A stretch of 64,000 nt of DNA. Source: Bacteroidota bacterium (lineage in GTDB: Bacteria; Bacteroidota; Bacteroidia; Flavobacteriales; Flavobacteriaceae). The stretch lies in NCBI GenBank assembly GCA_003650305.1, contig QMOV01000001.1, forward strand, positions 1-64,000. The letters run 5' to 3'. Under the pieces are notes generated by a model. The model did no database searches and was not told the DNA's origin. It saw only the letters and a program-made list of their open reading frames with translations. Made by a program: the position numbers and the translations under genes. Shown here piece by piece: positions 1 to 3,846 of this stretch; within the stretch, counting starts at the first letter, position 1; every line of letters starts with the position of its first letter.

Positions 1-1176
1 TACTTTCATTGGCTGAATTAACTTCTATTTGATATATCGTTTTGGCAATGTCAATAGCTTTTTCCGGACTTAAGTTGGATTGTTTTTCTTTCAGTTGTCT
101 TTCAAGTTCTTTATATATCTTGTATGCTGCAAAATTAATGGTGATGTGTGCTTCTATTCTATTTTGTAGCCTGTGGTATATCGGCCTTACTTTTAAATCA
201 TGTTTTGATATTCTAAAAGCTTTTTCAATTTTCCATAAATGACCGTAATTCTCAATTATCTCGCCTTTGTTTAAAGAAGTATTAGTTACATATCCTTTTA
301 ATCCATCCCACTTTGCATCAAGTTGATATTTAGTTTTATCAATGCTTATTTTAATATCACCATCCATTTTCAGGTACTTATTATAGCCTCTGTTATTGAT
401 ATTTGATTTGGTGAGCTTGCCTGAGCTAATCTGCTTTTCTAAGCGTTGTAGTCCTCTGTCACGATTGTGCTTACCCTTTTTGGCTCGTTTATCAGAATAG
501 CTGATTATAAGCTTTAATCCATCTGTTCTTTTTATGATTTTACTTTCCCCATTCTTTAATTCTAGTGTGAGTATTTTGTCCTTAAGCTTCTTGGGTTCAT
601 TTTTGATTCTTGCGCCTAAGATAAACTCATATCCCTTTTGTTGGAGGTCTTCTATGTTCTGATTAGACAAGAGCCCTGAATCGGCAACAATAACCAACTT
701 ATTGAGCTTATACTTTTCTTTAAAAGCATCTAATATCGGAAGCATCGTGTGTCCTTCAAATTTGTTACCTTCAAAAATGTCAAACGCTAAAGGGTAGCCA
801 TCAATACTAACCAAGAGCCCTAAAACAATTTGTGGATTTTGATGCTTCCCTTCTTTAGAAAAGCCTCTTTTCCTTATTTGATCTTCATCGTCTATCTGAA
901 AAAAAAGCGTTGTTACATCATAAAAAACAACGTTTATTACTCCGTTCAAAACCTTTAAGGTGTGATCATAACTTATTTGTTGAATAAGCTCTTTTTGTTC
1001 AGAATATAGTTTGTCTAGGTAGCGGTATATTTTCTCAACAGGTATGTTGATGTTTTTATTCTGAAACAAATAATCAGATGTTCTGAGTTTACTCACAGGG
1101 TGATATAGCCGTGCAATTACAACGTGCTTAAAGAGCTCTTCTTCTATTAAAGAAAACCTGACATCATTAAACCCGC
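1..1176 (-). pseudogene. C-terminal part of IS1634-family (IS4-superfamily-like) transposase, runs off the left window edge; separated from its N-terminal part (2529-2817) by an IS1380-like insertion
   Basis: Minus-strand reading is open to the window edge: ...GFNDVRFSLIEEELFKHVVIARLYHPVSKLRTSDYLFQ...VFYDVTTLFFQ...VIVADSGLLS..., typical of IS1634-type transposases. Confidence 0.8.
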
Positions 1177-2528
1177 ATTATGCAATAGAATAATCAAAAG
1201 GAGGGCTAGTATTCTTGATTTGGGAGAAAATTCCGTCTAACCAAGGTCTTCTTTTGGTATGTAAAGAGATTTTCAACACCTGCTTATTGGCATGATTTAT
1301 CTTCCACGCTCCTAATGCAAAGCAATAGACTTTTAGTGTTTTCAAGGTTGCTCTATTATGATGGTTTAAAGCAAAATGCCTAAACAACCTCATTAGGTTG
1401 TAAGCAACCATTATAAACCTAAATGATGCTTCTGTAGCCCAAAAATCTTCTTTTAGTTCTTTTATTCTATTTTCGCAATCTGCACGCGTATTATACATGT
1501 TCCAAATTTGGTCTAAAGGAAGATCTAAATTGGTTACGTAACAACTGTAACGGTAGCCAGGTAAATCTTCAAAAAGCATTTTACCTGCTGCTTTAGGACG
1601 TATTTCTACTTGTTTTCGTACGATAATGTATCTTCTTATTTTACCATTTTCATGTTTAAATTTCATCTCATTCAACTCAATCCCTTTTGCTAGAGTAATC
1701 CAATCTTGCAATCCTCCAATAGAGCTTTTTACGGTTGGATACATTCGTACAGCCATGATATAATTGAGCTTTTCACTTTCTAAATAACTCATTAATTCTT
1801 CAGTGTAAAAACCACTATCAGCACGAACTAATCCTACTTTTTTATCTTTCAAAATTTGATTAAAAGTTTCTTCCATAAATGCCTTACAACCGCTACTATC
1901 TGCTGTATTTCCTGGTCTGAGCCAAGCATTAGCTACCATTCTGGTTTGACTTACAAATGCCATTAATGGATGGTGAGAATTACGACCTTTCTTGTTCGGA
2001 TTGTAGCCTTTAGCACTTCCTTGTTGCTCTCCATAGCGTGTAATGACAGTACTATCAAAGTCAATAGTAATGTTATCAATATTAATTTGGTCAAAAAACC
2101 AATGCTGGAGCTTTGGAAAGACTTCTGTATTTCTTGCTTGTGAAAATTTACCGAAAAAACGGCTATAGGTACTTTGTGATGGCATCTGATCCCAACAAAA
2201 GATCGATTGCAAAACTTTATCATACCTAAGCCAGTCGCAATGAATATAACGTGATGCTCCTGTCCAAATACCTAACCAAAAGGACTCTATAATGTGGTTA
2301 GGAGAATAACCTCTATTTGAACCTGGTTGTGGAAGATTTAATTCATTTAAAAATCTCGAATACCTGTTTTATCTATGAATCTTTTCATTAAACTCACCCC
2401 TCCAAAAGGGGTTACTTGTTTATCTGAATACTCTATCGGAAGATTAACCATTTGGGTTATTATTAAATTAAACCCAAAGATAGTATTAACAAGCGTTTAG
2501 AGAAAAAAAATATATCCTATTGCATAAT
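1177..2528 (-). mobile_element. IS1380-like insertion sequence, about 1.35 kb, nested in an IS1634-like transposase
   Basis: Imperfect inverted repeats ATTATGCAATAGAATA (1177-1192) and TATCCTATTGCATAAT (2513-2528), 15/16 matching, bound the transposase ORF and coincide with the break in the IS1634 reading frame. Confidence 0.8.
1178..2451 (-). pseudogene. IS1380-family transposase with an N-terminal frameshift
   Basis: Main ORF 1178-2212 (...TIDFDSTVITRYGEQQGSAKGYNPNKKGR...VRADSGFY...). N-terminus MVNLPIEYSDKQVTPFGGVSLMKRFIDKTGIRDF* starts at 2451; the homologous reading resumes in another frame as ..NELNLPQPGSNRGYSPNHIIESFWLGIWTGASRYIHCDWLRYDKVLQSIFCWDQ, implying a 1-nt loss near 2346-2355. 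Confidence 0.75.
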
Positions 2529-2817
2529 CACGGTTAAATATTCTCCCGAGTAATAAATCTGTTCCGACTTCTGTATGTGTTGATATACTTTGAAAAGCCG
2601 ATTTTAAAATATTATCTGTTGAGCAGAAATCTAAAATTTGTTGACCAGAGTATGAGTCAATAAATCTTTTTCCTTCTATAACAAGCCGCTCAATCTCATT
2701 AATATCTTTTGCACTTCCAATAGTCTTAACCAATTTAGACTTGCCTTCTAGCTTATTTATTACCTGGATACTAATTATCCCGCTTTTATTTCTCTTTTTA
2801 CGAACGAACACAGCCAA
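2529..2817 (-). pseudogene. N-terminal part of IS1634-family transposase, interrupted by the IS1380-like element
   Basis: MAVFVRKKRNKSGIISIQVINKLEGKSKLVKTIGSAKDINEIERLVIEGKRFIDSYSGQQ...VGTDLLLGRIFN, then the reading enters the IS1380 terminal repeat. Confidence 0.8.
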
Positions 2818-2894
2818 AAATAAAGTAAAAATTAGCTAGGTCACCCATTTAAAGACCATTTAAATCATTAACTCGCTTATAATCTTTTAGTTAG

Positions 2895-3053
2895 AATTTT
2901 TACCTTGAAAAGGTGTCGAAAACAGGAGACAATGACTCTATTGTTACAATAAAAAAAGCGACATTTAAAATTAAAATGATAGAACTAAAAGGAGAGAGTT
3001 TTATTAACACACTCCGCAAGAAACTTCTTTGGGGAGAAGACAAACGAAATTAG
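2895..3053 (+). pseudogene. nadK: 3'-terminal fragment of NAD kinase
   Basis: Unlisted open reading NFYLEKVSKTGDNDSIVTIKKATFKIKMIELKGESFINTLRKKLLWGEDKRN*, resembling NAD kinase C-termini of Bacteroidota; in-frame stop TAG at 2892-2894; lies directly upstream of DUF6089-uppS-bamA, where nadK commonly sits in flavobacteria. Confidence 0.7.
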
Positions 3054-3125
3054 GCAATAATTTAGCTTAATTCCTGTTTACCTTTAATACTATTCAACAA
3101 ATTATAATAGGCAAATCTTATTTAT

Positions 3126-3133
3126 TATATTTG
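3126..3133 (+). promoter_or_regulatory. Candidate Bacteroidota -7 box TATATTTG upstream of the DUF6089-uppS-bamA operon
   Basis: Matches TAnnTTTG 17 nt before the ATG at 3151; no clear -33 TTG. Confidence 0.4.
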
Positions 3134-3150
3134 CAAACTTTTAAAACCCA

Positions 3151-3846
3151 ATGAAGTACGTAACCATTATTATTATGAGTGTTTTATGTTACAATTTTAG
3201 CTACTCACAAATTTATGAAGTAGGAGTGTTTATTGGTGGCAGTAATTTTATTGGAGACGTAGGCGCTACTAACTATATTTCGCCTAACCAACTCGCAGTT
3301 GGTGGTATTCTTAAATGGAATAGAAGCCCAAGACATTCGTATAGAATATCAGTAATTTATGCAAAATTAGAAGGCATAGACCAAAAGTCTGATGATCCAA
3401 GGCGACAACAAAGAGGATATTCTTTTGAAAATAATTTATTAGAAATTTCTGCTGGAATGGAATTTACCTTCTTTGATTTTGATTTACATGCCGAAGAAAA
3501 AAAAATGACACCTTATTTATATTCTGGAATAAGTGCTGCAAATCATGATAACTTTTACTTTAACAATAGTGGAGTAATAATCTCGGAAAATAAAAAAAGT
3601 TGGGCATTTGGTATTCCAATAGTTTTAGGATTTAAAACTACACTTACAAATAGTTTTATCCTTGCACTTGAAGTTGGTGCTAGATATACATTTTCAGACG
3701 AAATAGATGGCAGTATTCCAGATAATAAATCCTTACAAGCTCAATTTAGCTTCGGAAATATAAACAATAATGATTGGTACACATTTTCTGGAATCACATT
3801 AACTTACACCTTTGGTCAAAACCCTTGCTATTGTGGTTACGAATAA
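3151..3846 (+). CDS. DUF6089 family outer-membrane beta-barrel-like protein
   Basis: ORF with signal peptide, glycine/aromatic barrel-like sequence; position immediately upstream of uppS. Confidence 0.75.
   Translation: MKYVTIIIMSVLCYNFSYSQIYEVGVFIGGSNFIGDVGATNYISPNQLAVGGILKWNRSPRHSYRISVIYAKLEGIDQKSDDPRRQQRGYSFENNLLEISAGMEFTFFDFDLHAEEKKMTPYLYSGISAANHDNFYFNNSGVIISENKKSWAFGIPIVLGFKTTLTNSFILALEVGARYTFSDEIDGSIPDNKSLQAQFSFGNINNNDWYTFSGITLTYTFGQNPCYCGYE

Follow-up and report, generated by a model that had tools for sequence, protein, structure and literature searches.

Two members of the IS1634 family of insertion sequences (IS), IS1549 and IS1634, make direct repeats of 8-514 bp, for which a mechanism was not proposed, and other members of the family make duplications of 5-6 bp (PMC2266710). 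The elements of this family are 1500-2000 bp long, and their terminal inverted repeats begin with C (PMC2266710). For ISGka5, one of these other members, a duplication of 6 bp was reported (PMC8024623). Our further search of the literature found no mechanism for the long duplications of IS1634 and IS1549. The locus described here belongs to the long-duplication type. That is, variable repeats abut the element on both sides, and their length is 215-217 bp at this locus and 42-618 bp in 23 relatives.

The window, that is, the whole stretch of 64,000 nucleotides that was analyzed, begins within an IS because its contig (C1) itself begins there. The frame at 2895-3053 translates to NFYLEKVSKTGDNDSIVTIKKATFKIKMIELKGESFINTLRKKLLWGEDKRN* and has an in-frame stop codon directly upstream. 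A sequence-only reading of the window had taken these 52 amino acids for the C-terminus of NAD kinase (NadK) lying beside an IS1634-like element, and this juxtaposition was borne out. The fragment matched the NadK of the same genome with 75% identity in a tblastn search (E 2e-16; match at C1:2907-3050), and the transposase part in the window, taken alone, matched the IS1634 model NF033559 with 325 bits (cut-off 100, E 1e-96). The peptide and its upstream stop were also as described, but the extent assigned to NadK was too large: positions 2895-2926 are the terminal sequence of the IS1634-family element and not NadK, the nadK-derived DNA starts at 2927, and the NadK residues in the fragment number about 42, not 52. 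The nadK 3' fragment, consisting of about 42 codons and a stop, thus occupies 2927-3053 on the plus strand and lies inside the duplication. A Pfam search with the 52-aa fragment returned only a chance match to DUF2513. Because a piece of such length is too short for recognition by Pfam, we identified the fragment by the tblastn hit to the NadK of the same genome.

The 3' (C-terminal) part of the IS1634-family transposase gene lies at 1-1176 on the minus strand, and shows 67% identity over 386 aa to an intact relative from Terrimonas. The last 38 bases of another contig, C123 (5973-6010), are the same as window positions 1-38, and the element's final 83 bp are found on C123:5890-5972. The 5' part of the element, containing the N-terminal transposase codons (ORF from 2817) and the left end, lies at 2529-2926 on the minus strand, where the intact transposase from Terrimonas detected it in a tblastn search (E 4e-17). 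Its terminal inverted repeat, CCTGTTTTCGACAC, at 2913-2926 on the minus strand, is identical at 14 of 14 positions to C123:5890-5903. Taken together, C123:5890-5972 and window positions 1-2926 make 3009 bases with perfect 14-bp terminal repeats. When about 1350 bases of a nested IS1380 element are subtracted, the length becomes about 1.65 kb, and close intact relatives are 1635-1660 bp long. Both this length and the CCTGTTTTCGACAC ends agree with membership in the IS1634 family.

The sequence-only reading had placed a single IS1634-like element 5' of the fragment. Such an element is indeed present, but there are two elements, the second being nested within the first. The second is an IS1380-family element at about 1177-2528 on the minus strand, inside the IS1634 transposase gene, and was recognized from its match to NF033539 (195 bits, cut-off 180), its junctions and its frames. 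Inverted repeats of 12 bp, ATTATGCAATAG, stand at 1177-1188 and 2517-2528. The IS1380 transposase frame is broken near 2355, and the element occurs as a single copy in the genome. It would have landed within the IS1634 transposase after the insertion of IS1634. Relatives of the IS1634 element possess a single intact transposase frame; the present copy does not, and it cannot make a whole transposase because the IS1380 element splits the gene. The split transposase is the decay of a member of the IS1634 family, not a defining absence.

When the element was sought in 100 genomes (its own and 99 relatives), the only match beyond its own genome was a decayed one in another genus of the family. The four congeners gave no match, and therefore no congener shares the insertion. 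A second IS1634 remnant was observed on contig C129 of the same genome (L008, G000:C129, 5087-5814), where 123 bp are identical to window positions 1-123. This remnant is cut by an IS3-family element and adjoins adenylation-domain and ketoacyl-synthase-like genes. Past the IS3 element on C129, no IS1634 sequence is left.

The gene nadK, encoding NAD kinase, is an essential gene. A family search of the whole genome found one NAD kinase above the cut-off, and it is located on C123. This nadK (C123:4915-5799) is complete, encodes 294 aa, and matches the PRK01911 NAD kinase equivalog with 432 bits (cut-off 309). On the 3' side of its stop codon, C123 continues with normal intergenic DNA, then CCTGTTTTCGACACTGGGTCACCC and 121 bases of the IS, and there the contig ends. 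In the window, an intact DUF6089 gene, the usual right-hand neighbour of nadK, follows at 3151-3846 on the plus strand (PF19573, E 1.7e-92). In all 29 relatives examined, nadK and DUF6089 are adjacent in this order on the same strand, and the gap between them is usually about 100 bp. In one congener, G001, about 220 bp of extra sequence lies between the two genes (L011, about 1250-1470; G001:C404:8850-9060). This insert resembles a small interspersed (MITE-like) repeat, and pieces related to it are many in G001 and G003 and few in the remaining three genomes of the genus.

The segment C123:5673-5889 is identical to window positions 2927-3143 (plus strand) at 202 of 217 positions. The left copy stops where the IS starts, and the right copy begins where the IS ends. 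We give the length of the repeat as 215-217 bp because one base at each border can be assigned to either side. The IS terminus on C123 occurs once in the genome, even in a search that allowed three mismatches. A point against a join is that the 38-base overlap of C123 with the window lies in IS sequence that is also present on C129. We infer that the IS physically links C123 to C1. In the congeners G002, G003 and G004, the segment is single-copy and the element is absent; such an empty site is consistent with repeats that may have arisen at transposition. We therefore consider it very probable that the locus represents a single insertion of an IS1634-family element at the nadK-DUF6089 junction, with a target-site duplication of 215-217 bp that leaves an intact nadK on the left and a scrap on the right.

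The course of this insertion can be considered as follows. The IS1634-family element (about 1.65 kb without its passenger) would have transposed into the nadK-DUF6089 junction. One end would have joined inside nadK, about 42 codons before the stop, and the other about 90 bp past the nadK stop, just before the start of DUF6089. Repair of these widely spaced joints would then have duplicated the intervening 215-217 bp, so that the left copy, on C123, completes nadK and the right copy, at 2927-3143, became a stranded scrap. Joints at these two positions spare both nadK and DUF6089, and the scrap remains as a remnant.

The two copies of the repeat are not uniformly similar. Over its first 44 bp (2928-2971), the window copy shows no difference from the sister species G002 and 12 differences from the genome's own nadK, and the other 171 bp show 2 differences from the own nadK. 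In the DNA around the repeat, most positions are closest to G002; the exception is the 3' half of the C123 nadK, which resembles G001 and G003 (mosaic at C123:5401-5888, L007). The base adjoining the IS on C123 is also shared with G002. This uneven similarity is not explained by a simple duplication alone. It agrees with an element that first entered a G002-like allele, after which G001/G003-like sequence was imported or the repeat copies exchanged sequence; mixing of strains in the assembly is a possible alternative. That is, recombination or strain mixing after the insertion may have made part of the repeat copies differ. We also considered that a single event, in which the donor strand looped out the IS, produced the mosaic, and rejected it because the left copy is also of the donor type past the switch point.

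The mosaic also bears on whether C1 and C123 derive from separate strains or loci, so that the structure would be an assembly artefact or a mixture and not one insertion. The assembly is fragmented (219 contigs, with 2.66% contamination), C1 and C123 both end in IS sequence, C129 carries 123 bp of the same IS, and over the 44 bp the window copy does not differ from G002. Against this, the repeat abuts both ends of the IS within a base or two, the 14-bp terminal repeats and the length of the element are right, and nadK and DUF6089 lie side by side in 29 of 29 relatives. These points likewise disfavour the joining of unrelated segments at a repeat, which the sequence-only reading had raised. Even a mixture of strains still requires an IS with such a long duplication in at least one strain. 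We therefore regard an artefact or mixture as very improbable.

Long duplications are widespread in the Bacteroidota relatives of IS1634. A survey of relatives of the transposase gave 41 Bacteroidota elements with candidate ends and flanks of 90 bp or more on both sides, and direct repeats abutting both ends were found in 23 of them. Their lengths were 42, 45, 46, 56, 72, 75, 75, 79, 89, 90, 91, 108, 131, 155, 173, 191, 242, 260, 309, 326, 412, 434 and 618 bp, the longest being that of L059. A further element outside these 23, L076, has a repeat of 488 bp. As a control, the positions were shifted outward, and a repeat of at least 12 bp was then seen in 4 of 258 tests. No abutting repeat was found in the remaining 18 of the 41 elements, several of which have weak ends or short flanks, and 23 of 41 is probably a lower bound.

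The finished, single-contig genome G200 contains four copies of its element that are at least 99.9% identical, and two of them have repeats of 325 and 131 bp. The other two, L138 and L139 (C1:2011015-2017076 and 2054491-2060552 of that genome), lie in opposite orientation about 43 kb apart and have no repeat of their own. We considered them as repeat-free counter-examples, and this was rejected, because their repeats were found swapped by inversion: the 281 bp that flank one copy on its left read as the reverse complement of those that flank the other copy on its left, and the same holds for 156 bp on the right. Ordinary repeat pairs take on just this arrangement after an inversion between L138 and L139.

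We also counted how often the entire duplicated segment falls within one ORF of 80 codons or more. This was so in 7 of the 23 insertions, whereas segments placed at random in the same DNA would give 13.2 (simulated P 0.0017), the ORFs being mechanical ones and not genes, and the sample being small. This lower number is consistent with the survival of insertions that leave genes whole.

We analyzed the target sequence at both joints of 24 repeat-bearing elements, using the uninterrupted copy and orienting each joint outward from the IS end. The base at +1 was A in 42 of 48 joints, and that at +2 was a purine, also in 42 of 48; A was more weakly favoured at +3 to +6. In the IS-adjacent copies, with the two ends taken apart, A occurred at +1 in 19 of 24 (p 9e-7) and 22 of 24 (p 4e-10). 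The present insertion fits this A-purine (^AR) motif at both joints, AGACAATG and AAAAAGTT. An apparent avoidance of G at -1 (0 of 48) proved to be an artefact, in which the repeat boundaries slide into the terminal G of the IS; in the uninterrupted copies, G stands there in 11 of 48.

The repeat might also have come from ordinary recombination or a tandem duplication, before or after the insertion, with the IS merely lying at its border. The unequal histories of the copies, partly G002-like and partly G001/G003-like, agree with such an origin. In 23 relatives, however, repeats of random length stop at the ends of the IS, with the A-purine motif at both joints. Since unrelated duplications would not end at an IS each time, we consider this origin highly improbable indeed. 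Extremely improbable is a disruption of nadK by the IS that left the cell to survive on a truncated or relocated NadK: the 3' end of nadK does abut the IS and no nadK body adjoins it in the window, but the genome's only nadK lies across the element and has its full length, with this C-terminus included, which refutes the disruption unless C123 stems from another organism.

Thus, of what had been proposed from the window, the insertion of the IS at nadK stands and the disruption of the essential gene does not, because the intact C123 gene lies on the other side. An intact copy elsewhere, one of three options offered, was found in the form of this complete nadK. It is not a relocated or duplicated gene; it borders the same insertion on the left, and the fragment belongs to the right-hand copy of the duplication. 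A nadK body lacking its C-terminus (the last about 50 aa), expected beyond the IS, was sought across the genome and was not found. No essential gene is disrupted, relocated or separately duplicated here, and the alarm was unfounded.

Returning to the insertion with a long duplication, the joints suggest that each IS end may pick an ^AR target site independently. That is, like motifs that face each other at variable spacing point to ends that were joined independently, and an independent choice by each end would explain the variable length of the repeats. We tentatively propose, with less than even confidence, that the two ends of Bacteroidota IS1634 elements are joined independently to the target, at distinct ^AR-type sites that face each other across tens to hundreds of bases, and not at one fixed-width staggered cut. 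If this is true, long and variable duplications that often spare the neighbouring genes would follow, and the geometry would be unlike that of ordinary DDE insertion sequences. A motif common to both joints across many elements makes the question of the duplication mechanism testable.

These results remove a false alarm over an essential gene and show the origin of such scraps, which gene callers will misread as paralogues or truncated genes. By way of a long duplication, an IS can land within an essential gene and yet leave that gene unbroken. In addition, the swapped repeats in G200 indicate that long duplications can mark past inversions.

This locus adds a further, well-explained case of a known behaviour that is mechanistically unexplained. 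IS1634 of Mycoplasma mycoides subsp. mycoides SC and IS1549 of Mycobacterium smegmatis have the same transposase family and the same long, variable repeats as the element studied here. The present element differs from them in belonging to a Bacteroidota clade, in which the longest repeat is 618 bp as against the published 514, and in that the copy was inactivated by a nested IS1380 element; it is from our survey that we describe an A-purine motif at the two joints. The IS1634 members with short duplications are of the same family, but their duplications are nearly fixed at 5-6 bp, whereas those described here extend over tens to hundreds of bases. As for the IS1380 family, the nested transposase matches NF033539 above the cut-off and its frame is broken, and this element is a passenger only.
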